Shown in pieces: positions 2 to 63,697 of a stretch of 64,000 nt of DNA. The notes below the pieces were generated by a model. That model was not told the DNA's origin, searched no databases, and saw nothing but the letters and a program-made list of their open reading frames with translations. The first letter of the stretch is position 1, and each line of letters begins with the position of its first letter. Origin of the DNA: Maribacter aestuarii (GTDB lineage Bacteria > Bacteroidota > Bacteroidia > Flavobacteriales > Flavobacteriaceae); contig NZ_CP107031.2 of assembly GCF_027474845.2 (NCBI RefSeq), positions 2,742,501 through 2,806,500 of the forward strand, read 5' to 3'. Position numbers and translations under genes: made by a program.

Positions 2-109
2 CAAGAGTGTGAAACTGGAAAGATGGACGAATATCAAAAGATAGAGCAAACGTTTTCCCCAATAGCATTAAAAGAAATTTCGAGTTGGATATTAGAGCAT
101 GTAAATTAA
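2..109 (+). CDS. C-terminal end of an unidentified protein (partial)
   Basis: An open frame enters from the left edge and stops at 107-109, giving 35 residues that end in SSWILEHVN. The segment reads as coding (mixed charged and hydrophobic residues, no low complexity) and lies on the same strand as the genes that follow, 75 bp upstream of the next start. The fragment is too short to assign a family; a helical C-terminus of an alpha/beta-hydrolase-like enzyme is possible but unsupported. Confidence 0.4.
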   Translation, partial: QECETGKMDEYQKIEQTFSPIALKEISSWILEHVN

Positions 110-184
110 TTCGTTCGGATTCATAAAACAGAATGGTTTAAGAATGGCTTAAACTTAGTTTTGTCTAATAATAAATTTTAAATC

Positions 185-1096
185 ATGAGAAAATATATAA
201 CTGTAGTTCTGTTATTGTTTACAATGATAACTTTTGCACAGTCTGCTTCCAAAAATCAAAAGAATGTGCTCATAATTGTAAGTAGTTACGGTAAAGATAA
301 TGGTAAAACACGACCAGGATTTGAGTTTGAAGAGTTTGTAGATGCCTACAATATTTTTACTTCAAATAATAGTAAGGTTACCGTGGCTAGTCCTAAAGGT
401 GGTAGTGTTGTGGCAGATAAATTTGACGCAACCAAAGAAAAAAATAATGCTTTTTTTACAAATAAGAATACAGCTTCCATACTTTCACAAACAGTAGCCA
501 CTTCACAGGTAGACGCAGATGACTATGATGCTATCTATATTATTGGTGGTAAGGGTGCAATGTTCGATGTTCCATATGACCCTTCATTACAAGATATAAT
601 ACTAAATCTATACAATCGAAAAGGTACAGTTTTGGCTTCTGTTTGTCATGGTACTTCTGCCTTTATTAATGTGAAACACCAAAACAATTATATTTTAGAT
701 AATGAAAGGATTACAGGATTTTCTAATGAGGAAGAAAAAATTTTTAAGAGTAAATGGATAGATGAATTCCCATTTTTATTGGAAGATGCCGTAAAGTCTA
801 GAGGTGCAAAATATCAAAAAAGTAGTTTTATGCTAGAAAACGTGGTCATTTCTGGCAAGTTTATAACAGGGCAGAATCCAGCTTCCACAAAAGTTTCGGC
901 GGAAGCTGTGGTGAATGCTTTAGGAGTGAAGCCTGTGCAAAGAGCTAAGGATAGTAAAGAGAAGTTAGAAAAAGGGATGCGTTTAATCACTTTTGGTAAA
1001 CCTTATTTTTTCAATGAAAACTTTCAGTTATTAGTAGCAAAAACACAGCTGAATCTTCAAAACACAGAACAAGCAAAAAAACACTTGAAGAGCTAA
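185..1096 (+). CDS. secreted DJ-1/PfpI (type 1 glutamine amidotransferase-like) protein, C-terminus frameshifted
   Basis: The first 19 residues are a signal peptide ending in FAQ, so the product is probably periplasmic. The rest has the DJ-1/PfpI fold: the IIGGKGAMFDV segment, then a nucleophile elbow SVCHGTSAF with Cys at about residue 154 followed by His. Such proteins include glyoxalases, chaperones and proteases; the substrate here is unknown. The open frame ends after KKHLKS. One extra A in the A7 run at 1075-1081 restores a C-terminus (KTLEELIEKN...NGITKS) ending at 1158, three bases before the start of the next gene, so the intact gene would be 185-1158 (324 aa) and coupled to the amidohydrolase. 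A partial paralogue lies at 13013-14136. Confidence 0.8.
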   Translation: MRKYITVVLLLFTMITFAQSASKNQKNVLIIVSSYGKDNGKTRPGFEFEEFVDAYNIFTSNNSKVTVASPKGGSVVADKFDATKEKNNAFFTNKNTASILSQTVATSQVDADDYDAIYIIGGKGAMFDVPYDPSLQDIILNLYNRKGTVLASVCHGTSAFINVKHQNNYILDNERITGFSNEEEKIFKSKWIDEFPFLLEDAVKSRGAKYQKSSFMLENVVISGKFITGQNPASTKVSAEAVVNALGVKPVQRAKDSKEKLEKGMRLITFGKPYFFNENFQLLVAKTQLNLQNTEQAKKHLKS

Positions 1097-1161
1097 TTGA
1101 AAAAAATCTTTTAAAAGAGGAAGCTACAACGTTACTTAATGGGATTACTAAAAGCTAAATA

Positions 1162-2719
1162 ATGAAGAAAAAAGTTTTATTTTTTTAAAAGTTAGTTGCG
1201 CATTAATTTCTATAGTAGTTATAGTTATGGCAACAGCTTATATATGGCCAACGAATACATTACAACCACCAAAATCTTTCGAAGAAACTATCATTAAAAA
1301 TGTAAGTATTGTCGATGTTAAAACAGGTAAAATAGCTAAGCATCAGTTTGTTTTAATTGAGCACTCTCGTATTACAAAAATTGATAGTACAAATATCATA
1401 GTTTCCGATGATGCTTTAATAATCGATGGCACCGATAAATTCCTAATTCCAGGTTTATGGGATATGCATACCCATTCCGATCAACATTCAGAATGGTTGC
1501 ATCATCCACTGTACATCGCAAATGGCATTACTGGGGTAAGAGATATGTCTGGTCAATTGAATGAAAAGGATAGTTATTGGGTGGGTAGTAAGGAACGTTT
1601 GCAATGGAATAAAGATTTAGAACTTAACACCAGGGTTACACCTAGATACGTATTACAAAGCAGTTACCAAATGGATGGTGTAAAAGCCATTCCTGAAGAT
1701 GCACCAGACTTTTTTAAACTGCAAAATCCATCCCAAGTAGATTCATTGCTACAATTCTATAAAAATGAAAAGGTGGATTTTATTAAGGTGTACCAACAGC
1801 TACCAAAGGACACCTATAAAACATTAGCATTAAAAGCACCAGAATATGGGTTGCATCTAGCAGGTCATAAACCCATGTTTCTAAGTTTGGAAGATGCGGT
1901 TAACCTAGGACAAAGAAGTTTTGAACACGGACGAATATTCATGTACGAATGTTTCCCGGAAACGGATAGTTTAAAGCATTCAACGAATTGGAAAGCCTAT
2001 TTTTCTAAATCAAAAGCAAAGATTGTACACCAGTTTGACAGTGTTCAAGCAAAAGCATTGATGCGTTTAATGCAGCAAAAAAAGCTTATTGGACACCTAC
2101 CTTACAGACCTTGAAGTTTGAGGCCAATGCGCATAAAAATGAGTTTACCAACAATGAAAATCTAAAATATGTAACCAACATTAGAAAGCGGTTATGGTGG
2201 AAATATGATACAGACCATAACAAAGAAAAAAATCTAGAAAGAAAAGGTGAAAATGTAAGTGAACAATTTTTTGAAGCTTCGAAAAATCAACTATCCATGG
2301 CACATAGAATGGGGGTGCCCATTATGGCAGGAACAGATGTTATGGACTCTTATGTGTTTGCCGGATTTAGTTTGCACGATGAATTATACGAATTGACTTC
2401 TGCTGGGTTGACCAACCTTGAAGCTTTACAAAGTGCAACTATGGTTCCAGCCACCTACTCAAATGCAATCGAGGATTATGGAACCATTGAAATAGGCAAA
2501 AAAGCAGACTTGGTTTTACTGGATAAAAATCCCTTACAGGATATAAATAATACAAAAAGCATCAATGGAGTACTGTTAAACGGTGTGTATTATGATGAAG
2601 AAAAACTCAGAGAACTAAAGGCGTTTACAGAAACGGCTGCTGGTAGTTTTCATATGAATGTAAAAACTTTTGTAAGCTTACTGAACAGTCCTTTAATACG
2701 CGTGCAGTTTGCCGATTAA
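1162..2719 (+). pseudogene. imidazolonepropionase-like amidohydrolase, broken by two frameshifts
   Basis: Three in-order pieces make one metal-dependent amidohydrolase of about 519 residues. The start at 1162 (MKKKVLFF) is followed by a T7 run (1180-1186) that is one base short; beyond it the frame continues through a membrane or signal segment (SCALISIVVIVMATAY) into residues now readable from an internal ATG at 1227. It contains the metal motif DMHTHSDQHSEW and a downstream HKPMF histidine. A second break at an A7 run (2077-2083) shifts the frame; after it the C-terminal half has AGTDVMD (metal Asp) and the typical end GTIEIGKKADLVLLDKNPL. Adding one base to each run gives a length divisible by three. 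Whether these are sequencing errors, slippage sites or true decay cannot be told here. A related intact gene is at 9334-10785. Confidence 0.75.
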
Positions 2720-2781
2720 TACATGTGAAAACAGGAAATGAATCATTTATCGGAAACAAATAATTAATGTCCTTTTAGTTT

Positions 2782-3306
2782 ATGATACAACTCAATTTAA
2801 ATAATATTGATGATGACTACTTCGCTTCAGCTTGGGGGCTTTATGAAGAAGCCTTTCCAGTTTATGAGAGAAGAACATTGGAGGCACAATCATGTTTACT
2901 GGAAAACCCTATTTACAAGTTTGATGTATTCATTGAAAAGAATGTGTTCATCGGTTTCGTTATGTGGTGGGATTTTGAAGATTTTCAATACATAGATCAC
3001 TTTGCCGTAACAAAATCTCTAAGAAGTAAAGGTTATGGAGCCAAAATATTGGAAGATTTTATAAAGGGAAATTCTAATCCCACTTTATTAGAGGTTGAAT
3101 TACCAGATAGCTCAATCAATAATAGAAGAATTCGATTTTATGAGCGACTTGGGTTTAAGTTAAACTTACACGAATATAAGGTCCCATCAAGTATTGATGA
3201 TCGTAAAATTGATTTATTGGTTATGACGTACCCTAACTCGATATCTAATGAAAGCTTCCAAAAGTTTGTTTCCAATAATCACCCTAAAATTTTTAAATCC
3301 TTTTAG
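2782..3306 (+). CDS. GNAT-family N-acetyltransferase
   Basis: The 174-residue protein fits the GCN5-related acetyltransferase fold, which moves an acetyl group from acetyl-CoA to an amine. The acetyl-CoA pyrophosphate loop is RSKGYGAKIL (R-x-x-G-x-G), preceded by the beta-4 strand YIDHFAVTKSLR and followed by the C-terminal signature NNRRIRFYERLGFKL. There is no signal peptide, so it is cytoplasmic. The substrate cannot be inferred. The C-terminal 25 residues extend past the usual domain end. It starts 62 bp after the amidohydrolase remnant on the same strand and is followed by a 383-bp stretch without a gene. Confidence 0.85.
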   Translation: MIQLNLNNIDDDYFASAWGLYEEAFPVYERRTLEAQSCLLENPIYKFDVFIEKNVFIGFVMWWDFEDFQYIDHFAVTKSLRSKGYGAKILEDFIKGNSNPTLLEVELPDSSINNRRIRFYERLGFKLNLHEYKVPSSIDDRKIDLLVMTYPNSISNESFQKFVSNNHPKIFKSF

Positions 3307-3430
3307 GGGCTTGAAATTAGTTTTGATTTTTAAACTAGAACTTTTCTTTAAAGTTGACAATTAATTTTACCTCATAAATTATTAACAATAATAGACCGCT
3401 TGTTGTTTTCTTTGGTAATATTTAAAAATG

Positions 3431-3535
3431 CGTCATAATTTATAGTCTTGCCTCATAATTTATAGTACTGCGCTAAACTTATTAACTCTTGCTTCATAAC
3501 TGTTTACTGTTGCTTCAAGGTTCATCGCATCTTTG
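3431..3535. repeat. phased degenerate direct repeats, 20-21 bp, upstream of a small membrane protein gene
   Basis: Within the gene-free stretch 3307-3689, four to five units follow one another at 20, 20, 21 and 21 bp. Units 1 and 2 (3431-3450, 3451-3470) share TCATAATTTATAG; units 3 and 4 (3471-3491, 3492-3512) are looser; a fifth CTTCA start at 3513 runs into CATCTTTG, close to a Bacteroidota -7 element. Each unit ends in TTG or CTG. A two-helical-turn period puts equivalent bases on one DNA face, as in an operator array. The same unit recurs at 10852-10938. The rest of the gap shows nothing else. Confidence 0.5.
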
Positions 3536-60306: not shown

Positions 60307-60337
60307 TTGGTAATATTTATCATATACAATATATTTG
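60307..60337 (+). promoter_or_regulatory. Bacteroidota-type promoter of the ethylene-receptor-like operon
   Basis: A TTG at 60307-60309 and TATATTTG at 60330-60337 (spacer 20 bases) match the -33/-7 consensus; the start codon follows 31 bp later. The 287-bp intergenic stretch upstream shows nothing else. Confidence 0.55.
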
Positions 60338-60368
60338 AAACTACGAATGAATCCTAAATGCCTTACAA

Positions 60369-60848
60369 ATGACCGAGATAATTGAATTCTTTCAGAATTT
60401 ATTCAACACTTCCGATTGGCCACCAAGATGGGTGTGTGGTAAATGGAGTGATTTTCACGGTTGGTTGTACATAGGAAGTGATATTGCCATTTGGTTGGCG
60501 TATTTTATTATACCTGTGGTCATTATATATTTTGTGCAGAAAAGACCAAAAGTTCCTTTCCTTCCTGTGTTCTGGTTGTTTGCCGCATTTATTATCTTTT
60601 GTGGTTCAACGCATATCTTGGATGCCATAATCTTTTGGTGGCCAGCGTATAGATTAAGTGCTTTATTAAAATTTCTCACGGCAATTATAAGCTTTGCAAC
60701 CGTTTTTGCATTAATCCGGGATTTACCGAAACTCTTGGATGCCAAAGCTCCCAACCTTCCAAATTCAGATGAGACCGCACGGTTGATGTCGAAAATAAGT
60801 GAAAAGGATGCGGAAATAGAAAGATTAAGGAGGCAACTATCGGATTGA
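60369..60848 (+). CDS. stand-alone ethylene-binding-type membrane sensor domain
   Basis: The 159-residue protein has three membrane helices and a C-terminal coiled coil (SKISEKDAEIERLRRQL). It corresponds to the copper-binding domain of plant ETR1-type receptors: Asp38, Tyr45, Ile75, Cys78 and His82 sit with exactly the spacing of ETR1 Asp25, Tyr32, Ile62, Cys65 and His69, in SDIAIWLAYFIIPVV and FIIFCGSTHILDAI. Downstream matches are ALLKFLTAIISFATVFALI and RDLPKLL. No kinase follows in the same chain; the histidine kinase is a separate gene 12 bp downstream. Cu(I) binding and ethylene or related small-ligand sensing are inference. Confidence 0.85.
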   Translation: MTEIIEFFQNLFNTSDWPPRWVCGKWSDFHGWLYIGSDIAIWLAYFIIPVVIIYFVQKRPKVPFLPVFWLFAAFIIFCGSTHILDAIIFWWPAYRLSALLKFLTAIISFATVFALIRDLPKLLDAKAPNLPNSDETARLMSKISEKDAEIERLRRQLSD

Positions 60849-60860
60849 TAGTTTTTATAG

Positions 60861-62381
60861 ATGAATAAAAAAACTAGGTCGAGTATCGTCAAGGATGCCA
60901 TATTGTTCTGTATTGCTTTGGTTATTGCCTTGGTGGTTTATAGCATAGACATTAATGTGCCCAGTAGTATTGCCATTGGGAGTATCTATTGCATGGTCAT
61001 TTTATACAGCTGGATACTATCGGGTAAGTACACTTCCATATACTTGGGTATTATCTGTACTATTTTGATTATAACGGCAATGGTAAAAGGGGCCGATAGT
61101 CTTTCTGGGGGAAGAATGGAAGGACTAAATTCATTTATTTCCATAATCGTAGTGTGGATTTGTGTAGCACTTGTATCCGCTGCCAAAAGTGGTTATGAAG
61201 GATTGGAAAGGGTTCTGGCGTCATTGGAGGATAAAGTACGAGAAAGAACAAAGGATTTAAATAAAAGCCGGGAAAAGCTAGAAGTAAGCGAAAAGGTGTA
61301 CAGGTACCTTTATGAAAACGCTAATGAAATGCACGCCAACGTACAGTTGAACAATAACCATATTATAAGATGTAACGATACCTTATGTAAGAAATTGGGT
61401 TATTCGAAAGATGAGCTACTGGGCAAACCAGTTGAGCTATTGCACCATATGGCAAGTAAGCCAAATCTAGATATCGCTTTGCAAAGCTTTAGGGATAAGG
61501 GTTCGATAAAGAATGCGGAATTGGTTTTAAGAACAAAATCTGGAAAGAAGATAGACGTTATTTTAAACGCAAGCTCGGCGAGGAACGATCAAGGTGAAAT
61601 TACATATAGCCGGTTAAGTTGGACAGATATTTCCGAACTTAAGAAAATTGAGGAGGAGCGCATTGCTTACGCGCAAAGTCTAGAGATGAAAAACAAGGAA
61701 TTGGAGCAATTTGCCTTTATTGCATCGCACGATTTACAAGAGCCCTTGCGTACGGTATCCAGTTTTTCCGGACTATTGGCCACTGAATATGTAGAAAAAT
61801 TTGATCAGACAGGAAAGGATAGTCTAAATTTTATCGTTGAGGCTACCACAAGGATGCAGAATTTGGTCAAAGGTCTGTTGGACTATAGTAGAATTGGGAA
61901 GGATGCGGCAAAATCACAAATTGATATCACAAAAGTACTCGGCGACCTTGAGAAGGACTTAAGTTTAAAAATTGCCGAAACCAATACTACTATAAATTAT
62001 AAAAAACTTCCAGATAGTGTTATAGGTTACCGGGCGGAGCTAAGACAATTATTCCAAAACCTGATTGTAAATGCCATGAAATTCACTAGGCCTGAGATAA
62101 ATCCAATAATCAATATTAGCGGTGCAAAAAGAAAGGGGAATATTCTTTTCTGTATAGAGGATAATGGTATAGGTGTGCCAAAAGAACATCAGCAAAAAAT
62201 CTTTAAAATTTTTAAGCGCTTACATATTCGGGATGAATATGAGGGTACCGGAATCGGTTTGGCACATTGCCAAAAAATTGTTGATCTTCACGGTGGTAAA
62301 ATTTGGATAGAATCTGAACCCGGAAAGGGAAGTAAATTTTTCTTTACACTCTCCAACAAATTAAAAATAACTTCTGTATGA
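60861..62381 (+). CDS. membrane histidine kinase with PAS domain
   Basis: The 506-residue protein has four to five N-terminal helices (AILFCIALVIALVVYSI, IAIGSIYCMVILYSWIL, SIYLGIICTILIITAMV, FISIIVVWICVALVSAA), a coiled coil (ASLEDKVRERTKDLNKSREKLEVSEK), a PAS domain (residues about 150-270, RYLYENANEMHANVQLNNN...SRLSWTDISELKKIE) and a kinase core: the phospho-accepting His in FIASHDLQEPLRTVSS, N box QNLIVNAMKF, G1 EDNGIGVP and G2 GTGIGLAHCQKIV. It is 12 bp after the ethylene-binding gene and overlaps the response regulator by 4 bp, so the three are one unit. Confidence 0.9.
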   Translation: MNKKTRSSIVKDAILFCIALVIALVVYSIDINVPSSIAIGSIYCMVILYSWILSGKYTSIYLGIICTILIITAMVKGADSLSGGRMEGLNSFISIIVVWICVALVSAAKSGYEGLERVLASLEDKVRERTKDLNKSREKLEVSEKVYRYLYENANEMHANVQLNNNHIIRCNDTLCKKLGYSKDELLGKPVELLHHMASKPNLDIALQSFRDKGSIKNAELVLRTKSGKKIDVILNASSARNDQGEITYSRLSWTDISELKKIEEERIAYAQSLEMKNKELEQFAFIASHDLQEPLRTVSSFSGLLATEYVEKFDQTGKDSLNFIVEATTRMQNLVKGLLDYSRIGKDAAKSQIDITKVLGDLEKDLSLKIAETNTTINYKKLPDSVIGYRAELRQLFQNLIVNAMKFTRPEINPIINISGAKRKGNILFCIEDNGIGVPKEHQQKIFKIFKRLHIRDEYEGTGIGLAHCQKIVDLHGGKIWIESEPGKGSKFFFTLSNKLKITSV

Positions 62382-62794
62382 AAAAAAAATTGAGCTGTGT
62401 TCTGTTAATCGATGACGATTACGCTACCAACTATATTCACGAAAGGACCATTAAGCAAGCCGATATGGCGGAAAAAGTGGTGGCGAAGCAAAGCGGATAT
62501 GATGCACTCGACTATCTGAGGGAAACTAACAGCGATGAATACATATGTCCGGAGATTATTTTTTTGGACATCAATATGCCGGGAATGGACGGGTGGGAAT
62601 TTCTGGATGAATATGACAAACTAGAAGAAGTGAAAAAAGCAAGGATGGTGCTCGTCATGCTGACCACTTCTTTGAATCCCGATGACGAAAATACTTCCAA
62701 AGATATTCCCAATATAAGCGGTTTCAAGAACAAGCCTTTAACGGTGCCGGTACTTGATGAAATTATTGATACACATTTTCCAGATTATAGATAG
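62378..62794 (+). CDS. single-domain response regulator (Rcp1-like)
   Basis: The 138-residue protein is one receiver domain without an output domain: the acidic pair VLLIDDDYATNYIH, phosphorylated Asp in IIFLDINMPGMDGWEFL, the Thr/Ser switch in LVMLTTSLNPDD, and Lys in GFKNKPLTVPVLDEII. Such single-domain regulators relay phosphate or bind partners directly. Its start overlaps the kinase stop (ATGA), giving one coupled unit. It probably acts as the output of the ethylene-type sensor, or as a relay to an unlinked protein. Confidence 0.9.
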   Translation: MKKKLSCVLLIDDDYATNYIHERTIKQADMAEKVVAKQSGYDALDYLRETNSDEYICPEIIFLDINMPGMDGWEFLDEYDKLEEVKKARMVLVMLTTSLNPDDENTSKDIPNISGFKNKPLTVPVLDEIIDTHFPDYR

Positions 62795-62938: not shown

Positions 62939-63697
62939 ATGGACATGAATTTAGCAGTTTTGATTGATGGAGATAATATTCCATCGGCATACGTCAAAGA
63001 AATGATGGAAGAGATAGCTAAATATGGTAACCCTACCATTAAACGTATATATGGGGATTGGACCAATCCGCGGTTAGGAAAGTGGAAAAACGTATTGTTG
63101 GAAAATGCCATCACGCCTATCCAACAATATGGCTATACGCAAGGTAAAAATGCTACAGATTCCGCGATGATTATTGACGCTATGGATATACTGTATACTG
63201 GAAAAGTGAACGGATTTTGTATCGTTAGCAGTGATAGTGATTTTACTAGATTGGCCACCAGACTACGGGAGGCCGGAATGCAGGTTTTTGGGATAGGGGA
63301 ACGTAAAACTCCAAACCCCTTCATAGTGGCCTGCGATAAATTCATCTATATTGAAATCTTAAAAAGTCAGGTCGAAGAAAGTATAGATTCTGATGAAAAT
63401 AAAGCTAAGGTAGATGCCAAAGTAGATAAAATTACACCAAAAGAACTTCGCTTTATTGCCAATACCATAGAAGACGTGGCGGATGACGATGGTTGGGCTT
63501 TTTTGGGGGATGTCGGTAGCCTTTTACAGAAGAAACAACCCAATTTTGACTCAAGGAATTATGGTTTTCAAAAGTTGACGCCGTTGATTAATTCTATTCC
63601 ACATTTTGAAATTGAGCGTAGGGAGGATTCTAAAGGAAGAAGAAAACTTATCTATGTGAAAATCAAGGAGAAGAAAAAACCAAAATCAGCCAAGTAG
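62939..63697 (+). CDS. NYN-domain protein with OST-HTH/LOTUS-like C-terminus
   Basis: The 252-residue protein has a PIN-like NYN domain: VLIDGDNIPSAYVKEMMEE, KRIYGDWTNPRLGKWK, NATDSAMIIDAMDILYTGKVNGFCIVSSDSDFTRLATRLREAGMQVFGIG, with the acidic residues expected of a metal-dependent ribonuclease (Asp10, Asp12 region and DSDF). The C-terminal part (KELRFIANTIEDVADDDGWAFLGDVGSLLQKKQPNFDSRNYGFQKLTPLINSI) fits an OST-HTH/LOTUS RNA-binding domain. A lysine-rich tail follows. It probably cleaves or binds RNA; the target is unknown. Confidence 0.85.
   Translation: MDMNLAVLIDGDNIPSAYVKEMMEEIAKYGNPTIKRIYGDWTNPRLGKWKNVLLENAITPIQQYGYTQGKNATDSAMIIDAMDILYTGKVNGFCIVSSDSDFTRLATRLREAGMQVFGIGERKTPNPFIVACDKFIYIEILKSQVEESIDSDENKAKVDAKVDKITPKELRFIANTIEDVADDDGWAFLGDVGSLLQKKQPNFDSRNYGFQKLTPLINSIPHFEIERREDSKGRRKLIYVKIKEKKKPKSAK

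Follow-up and report, generated by a model that had tools for sequence, protein, structure and literature searches.

Fused ethylene receptors are known from plants, cyanobacteria and Azospirillum (PMC11819568, PMC6682694), and a review describes varied output domains for the ethylene-binding domain (EBD) proteins of proteobacteria and cyanobacteria (PMC7700396). For SynEtr1 from Synechocystis, a phosphorelay to a response regulator is reported (PMC11819568). Structure and mechanism were called elusive in 2019 (PMC6586836); according to PMC10452086, Azhar et al. have meanwhile determined the structure of the ETR1 binding domain. Here we describe a locus in Maribacter aestuarii (Bacteroidota, Flavobacteriaceae) where the EBD is a separate protein, encoded upstream of a membrane histidine kinase and a response regulator. 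The window, by which we mean the whole stretch of DNA that was analysed, comprises 64,000 nucleotides (NCBI RefSeq assembly GCF_027474845.2, contig NZ_CP107031.2, positions 2,742,501 to 2,806,500 of the forward strand).

As far as can be judged from sequences, our results support a separate sensor subunit of the ethylene-receptor type that has its own kinase and is conserved across several groups of Bacteroidota. We consider it fairly probable that the locus specifies a two-subunit, Cu(I)-dependent ethylene-type receptor, with a sensor and a kinase subunit and a regulator, which probably goes back to one fission.

A separate ethylene-binding domain protein in Maribacter

Three genes are arranged head to tail on the plus strand (60369-60848, 60861-62381 and 62378-62794). 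The first codes for the stand-alone EBD protein of 159 residues and is followed, after a spacer of 12 base pairs (bp) with in-frame stops (60849-60860), by the gene for a membrane PAS histidine kinase of 506 residues, which overlaps by 4 bp with that for a single-domain response regulator of 138 residues (Response_reg PF00072, E-value 2.1e-11). Open reading frames and Pfam matches thus reproduce the layout given in a preliminary description of the locus: a separate EBD, a 12 bp gap, a membrane PAS-histidine kinase and an overlapping receiver-only regulator. Only its gene start at 60307 had to be corrected, as this position lies upstream of the likely start codon, ATG 60369; 18 homologues with inspected sequences begin near the same methionine.

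The EBD protein matches the ETR1_N family (PF25487, residues 30-124) with 121.9 bits at a cut-off of 27 (E-value 1.4e-35), which rules out a chance resemblance. Asp38, Tyr45, Ile75, Cys78 and His82, claimed before as ligand residues in ETR1 register, were found at exactly these positions, and Ile48 and Pro49 complete the seven-residue ethylene-binding set of ETR1. D38, Y45, I48, P49, I75, C78 and H82 would correspond to ETR1 residues 25, 32, 35, 36, 62, 65 and 69, at a constant offset of 13 which we assume from the residue numbering rather than from an alignment with ETR1. That Y32 belongs to the set is likewise our assumption, taken over in part from the preliminary description. Seven residues are required for ethylene binding (PMC6944256); ETR1 I35, P36, I62, C65 and H69 are described as essential for it, C65 and H69 as binding copper and D25 as being in infrequent contact with copper (PMC6586836). 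With a family score above the cut-off, all seven residues and three predicted membrane helices, the protein has the features of an ETR1-type EBD (PF25487).

A homologue search limited to 0.55-1.75 times the query length returned 371 clusters, with named members from Maribacter, Gramella, Tenacibaculum, Ekhidna, Reichenbachiella, Algoriphagus and Chryseotalea. Among the best 120 of these 371 homologues, lengths are alike (140-193 residues), the D, Y, I, C and H of the ligand site are invariant (120 of 120), and I48 and P49 are each kept in 119. Some Bacteroidota members already carry the database name 'Ethylene receptor 1-like N-terminal'.

In the AlphaFold2 model of the EBD protein (mean per-residue confidence, pLDDT, 76.7; predicted template-modelling score, pTM, 0.55), three membrane helices are predicted with moderate confidence at residues 28-58, 67-88 and 94-124 (60450-60740), and these carry the seven residues. 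After a break at 125-132, a C-terminal helix extends from residue 133 to 158 (60765-60842), with a pLDDT of 68 at 131-140 and of about 90 and 88 further on. Its heptad pattern (p 0.02) agrees with the earlier proposal that the small protein ends in a coiled coil, which thus holds at the level of prediction. A tail could be isolated from 114 of the 120 homologues, and in 91 of the 109 unique ones the heptad test, which is crude, gave p ≤ 0.05. Comparison with solved structures revealed no relative by sequence for the EBD (one chance coil match, E-value 0.95), and Foldseek returned no match at E ≤ 0.001.

Ahead of the first membrane helix, the window EBD has a motif conserved among Bacteroidota EBDs (R20, W21, C23, H30 and G31). 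R20, W21, H30 and G31 occur in almost all split and ordinary fused EBDs of this phylum and in none of six divergent fused ones, four of which keep C23. Cys23 and His30 could form an extra metal or redox site.

The source genome is a single contig of 3.86 Mb (97.6% complete). The window EBD is its only match to PF25487, and no second EBD gene was found in it, the sole extra match (E-value 0.07, with an internal stop) being due to chance. NCBIfam gave no match to the EBD protein and, among the best 25 matches each for kinase and regulator, none over the cut-off. The G+C content of the operon is 0.35-0.39, compared with 0.39-0.44 just upstream.

Kinase and regulator

The kinase begins with a domain of four predicted membrane helices (60861-61190), the hallmark of the split-receptor kinases, which is followed by a PAS domain (PF13426, residues 164-259; 61350-61637) and by the DHp and ATPase domains (PF00512, residues 282-346, and PF02518, residues 392-498; 61704-62354). 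PAS_9, HisKA and HATPase_c all score above their cut-offs. The phospho-acceptor His290 (61728-61730) in the DHp domain is present together with the catalytic residues N404, D434, G436 and G438, and the receiver domain of the regulator has its phospho-acceptor Asp64 (62567-62569). The pair thus has the phospho-acceptor histidine, the ATPase N and G boxes and the receiver aspartate of a two-component system. The histidine is found in 24 of 26 aligned kinases, the other two being gapped there, and the aspartate in all 19 regulators encoded third in the loci described below.

In the kinase model (mean pLDDT 75.0, pTM 0.46) helices are predicted at residues 3-32, 37-52, 58-79 and 86-153. The last is one long helix that runs into the PAS domain, with a pLDDT of about 60 at 111-150. 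A heptad pattern was detected at residues 111-138 (p 0.014), in the part of this helix that follows the fourth membrane segment, and none at 256-283 (p 0.42).

The membrane domain of the window kinase has no match in Pfam. Pfam was run on 32 kinases, with domain coordinates known for the window kinase only, and some of the stray families found in one or two of them (TarH, RNPP_C, DUF6377, DUF3450 and others) could touch the membrane or coil part. PAS_9 was found in 13 of the 32 aligned kinases, and partner kinases of about 385 residues show no match to the window PAS, so that this domain does not seem essential. VIA-align rows for the whole kinase consist of histidine kinases and related sensor proteins, mostly aligned over residues 155-502; a protein search with residues 1-135 gave only 10 relatives, listed without gene context.

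The EBD gene is paired with a kinase gene of its own

Scanning public genomes yielded 204 relatives, and the best 80 loci were retained. Most of these 80 are EBD-kinase fusions, often overlapping a receiver-only gene. Six stand-alone loci from the 80 (L004-L009), the 21 stand-alone Marivirga family matches after removal of the duplicate of L008, the contig-edge locus L185 and the window make up a set of 28 distinct stand-alone loci. Dropped before counting were L001-L003, L166 and L180 (duplicates or without EBD) and L014 (a fused EBD-PAS with broken frame); the L198 fragment did not enter the stand-alone count, and L067 gave no EBD open reading frame.

At all 28 loci, the gene after the stand-alone EBD codes for a kinase with the N-terminal membrane domain of the window kinase. 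The distance between the two genes varies from -8 to +41 bp; in 22 loci they overlap by 1 or 4 bp, with start codons assigned mechanically. All seven ligand-site residues are kept throughout, except for one I48L. The regulator is third in 19 loci; a gene on the opposite strand follows in six, the contig ends in two, and in one (L009) the kinase is broken into two frames. Of the gene trio whose co-occurrence across Bacteroidota was to be checked, EBD and kinase are thus constant at these loci, but the regulator is not.

The 36 genomes sampled from the genus contain EBD and kinase membrane domain together in the same two cases and neither of them in 34. This search used the single window sequence as query and is therefore free of profile circularity. 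The genus also holds Maribacter sedimenticola, for which sample genome G015 and the genome of L005 give the same places; its strain DSM 19840 (L005) has all three genes. In the family of Marivirga, an EBD match occurs in 68 of 295 genomes and is stand-alone in 22 of these, which comprise the 21 top-ranking matches and a further one at the edge of a contig. The kinase domain is found at E ≤ 3.4e-24 in exactly these 22 genomes, and no other genome of the 295 has a match between E-values of 3e-24 and 8e-13. The N-termini of 27 split kinases went into the profile, and as many of these came from the very genomes that were searched with it, their recovery is by construction; a first look was limited to 15 scored candidates per genome and could have missed a further copy. 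Of seven genomes from which other loci had come, six have a single copy of the kinase domain, immediately after the EBD, and the seventh is that of the fused L014. The genus sample shares one of these six genomes, and so does the family sample.

A kinase found mostly without the small protein had been named beforehand as an outcome that would contradict the proposal, and neither the genus, nor the Marivirga family, nor the seven other genomes show it. Co-occurrence in the genus and family samples leads us to reject coincidental neighbours; sensor and transducer genes are adjacent and co-inherited, as in a two-subunit system. Distances among EBDs and among kinase N-termini correlate with a coefficient of 0.90 (25 pairs), a value that shared descent alone would also produce.

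We also considered that a fused EBD-kinase gene has been frameshifted, or that the gene pair is an old relic. In the window, EBD and kinase genes are in phase with each other (their starts lie 492 bp apart), and broken copies exist elsewhere (L014, L172, L198). There are, however, 28 loci with differing gaps and with an additional membrane domain that separates the EBD from the kinase core, which refutes a frameshift or assembly artefact; catalytic residues are intact, and lengths and ligand residues are conserved in the best 120 of 371 homologues. We give this explanation virtually no weight.

Three loci deserve separate mention. In L172 (genome G1261) the kinase gene that accompanies a stand-alone EBD ends after about 74 codons, and the system seems to be decaying. 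L198 (G1326) has an EBD fragment of the stand-alone type that loses its frame after about 50 residues, in a genome without a split-type kinase-domain match. In L007, a frame of 1177 residues upstream of the split pair (2-3532) weakly matches the kinase N-terminal query (E-value 7e-5).

Split and fused forms and the origin of the split

The preliminary description had contrasted the separate EBD with its fusion to the kinase in plants and cyanobacteria. Fusion is, however, the usual state in Bacteroidota too, and in the EBD tree the split form is one derived branch. Among 392 genomes sampled from the phylum, 22 have an EBD, namely the window and 21 with the EBD in open frames of 390 residues or more. 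In the class sample, the window EBD was matched in 14 of 396 genomes; frame length marks these as fused, apart from the window and from G752, where stops break the match. Three of the 22 Marivirga family genomes (G1071, G1073 and G1293) have both stand-alone and fused copies. A regulator is the next gene after 43 of 79 fused EBD-kinases, and phmmer found no match to the N-terminal domain of the window kinase in the 79 fused proteins (E ≤ 1e-3). The canonical single-polypeptide receptor is thus not what is found at the 28 split loci, where the EBD is an open reading frame of its own, with a stop. At L089 and L091 (G219 and G392, two genomes of one genus) the EBD lies in an open frame of 1567 residues, a very large fused architecture.

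We propose that the split probably arose once: the sensor domain would have been cut from a fused EBD-kinase, and the kinase would have acquired a four-helix membrane domain of its own. A tree of EBDs, for which six divergent fused EBDs served as outgroup, places all 28 split EBDs on one side of a branch that lies within 87 fused forms. This branch has an SH-aLRT value of 94, which is below the star set by the tool, and the tree has few columns for many rows, many open forks and a long-branch warning. In a tree of kinase cores (146 rows), split kinases share a region with fused kinases from Spirosomataceae and a few others. They do not form one clade there, other kinases lying in between: four changes are needed, and starred branches force at least two of these. 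The core piece of L009, a split system classed as 'other' in this tree, falls elsewhere. These features of both trees weigh against our proposal. We consider a single origin of the split to be favoured by the EBD tree rather than proven, and fission of the same EBD-kinase gene, with a gained membrane domain, to be the favoured source of the kinase.

Proposed mechanism and ligand

In the two-subunit receptor that we propose, the EBD protein would be the sensor subunit, its three membrane helices holding a Cu(I) site (Cys78 and His82, with Asp38 nearby) which would bind ethylene or a close small ligand. It would form a membrane complex with the four-helix kinase of the next gene, and a coiled coil just inside the membrane may help to hold or couple the two. 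The ligand may alter the sensor bundle and thereby the helix packing in the membrane, which would act on the long helix of the kinase, its PAS domain and its DHp/ATPase core. The kinase would phosphorylate the receiver-only regulator, which may act by protein contacts and not on DNA; its output is probably a protein partner, as the receiver has no output domain.

Several points weigh against this proposal. A proline follows Pro120 at a distance of 3-22 residues in 84 of the 114 EBD tails; because of these frequent prolines and of the model break between residues 124 and 133, a rigid helix relay through the tail is doubtful, and we think a signal between membrane helices more likely than one down the tail. 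The kinase, with its own membrane domain and PAS, could sense something else, and in the Marivirga family a further 11 of the 295 genomes have weak kinase-domain matches (E-values 8e-13 to 0.008) without a stand-alone EBD. Finally, the present evidence fits ethylene and other Cu(I) ligands alike.

The kinase might respond to a signal of its own through its four helices and PAS domain, with the EBD protein as an accessory, that is, a partner in assembly or copper loading. Its sensor parts are complete, and remote relatives of its membrane domain (E-value 8e-13 and weaker) do occur in genomes that lack a stand-alone EBD. In the genomes searched, however, the close form did not turn up in the absence of the EBD gene, and the ligand-site residues, which a mere scaffold would not need, are kept. 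We regard this as rather improbable.

A more serious competitor, still an unlikely one, is the same two-subunit receptor with another natural signal, be it copper itself or a different Cu(I) ligand, for instance carbon monoxide or another small alkene. The conserved residues mark the copper site and its surroundings (ETR1 C65 and H69, PMC6586836) and not the ligand, and all conservation counts are compatible with any Cu(I) ligand. Set against this, I48, P49 and I75 are also kept, the ETR1 counterparts of which are essential for ethylene binding (PMC6586836), and known receptors with the same domain, those of Synechocystis and Azospirillum, respond to ethylene (PMC6682694, PMC11819568). We consider ethylene the likely ligand of the proposed receptor.

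A more far-reaching version, to which we would give slightly less than an even chance, is that one fission within Bacteroidota produced a detachable Cu(I) sensor docking on a four-helix kinase, by which many aquatic Bacteroidota sense ethylene from algae, plants or photochemistry, the latter meaning light-driven breakdown of organic matter. With such a two-subunit receptor, a large group of aquatic bacteria would be added to the organisms that perceive gas hormones, and an ethylene sensor would be able to work as a free subunit. At 159 residues, the bare sensor would offer a minimal protein of natural origin in which to study the binding of Cu(I) and ethylene, and communication between binding domain and kinase could be tested directly, since both halves can be combined, mutated and titrated independently of each other.

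Locus history in the genus

Directly downstream of the operon (62939-63697), the window codes for a NYN-LOTUS (OST-HTH) protein, which is present in 35 of 36 genus genomes and is probably not part of the operon. Around this gene, 30 of the 35 genus loci were read, about 1.5 kb on each side. Two of the 30 have the operon, one has the regulator alone, eight have NIPSNAP beside NYN without the operon, four have OmpA without NIPSNAP, and 15 have neither NIPSNAP nor OmpA within reach. As NIPSNAP adjoins NYN without the operon at eight loci, the operon sits at a junction that is empty elsewhere. The regulator occurs alone in G027, a fragmentary metagenome-assembled genome with the most similar NYN gene: NIPSNAP is followed by the intact regulator (L237, 937-1353) and then by NYN, and EBD and kinase are absent together from the locus. 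Both gain and loss of the operon in the genus are possible.

Comparison with known systems

In the literature searched, we found no split or stand-alone ethylene receptor and no mention of a Bacteroidota EBD, although an older mention may exist; the reference to Bacteroidetes in PMC10452086 concerns ACC deaminase. Literature on ethylene, Maribacter and macroalgae gave nothing useful.

The Maribacter system resembles the plant receptors ETR1 and ERS1 in its three-helix sensor, with seven ligand and copper residues in register, and in the histidine-kinase type. Whereas the binding domain of the plant receptors is the N-terminal part of a single polypeptide, it is a protein in its own right here, and the kinase has a membrane domain of its own. 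Residues 4 and 6, which form the disulphide of ETR1 (PMC6586836), have no cysteine counterpart in the window EBD, where Cys23 is the only cysteine ahead of the first membrane helix.

SynEtr1 (Synechocystis) and AzoEtr1 (Azospirillum) are similar as bacterial combinations of an EBD with a kinase, and the window EBD is 35-38% identical to Azospirillum plasmid loci. Like AzoEtr1, SynEtr1 is, we presume, one protein. AzoEtr1 is a single EBD-PAS-kinase protein of 525 residues (PMC11819568). The fused EBD-kinases of Bacteroidota (Spirosoma, Mucilaginibacter, Dyadobacter and others) are the closest EBD relatives outside the split branch, but they are single polypeptides and have no match to the membrane domain of the split kinases.

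A working principle of this kind is known from sensory rhodopsin II and HtrII, where a separate membrane sensor signals through a membrane transducer encoded beside it. Sensor, ligand and output are different there, and the likeness that we draw is one of working principle. Compared with all of these, the kind of receptor and the domain label in Bacteroidota are already known, and the split, two-part form is new as far as the literature searched shows.

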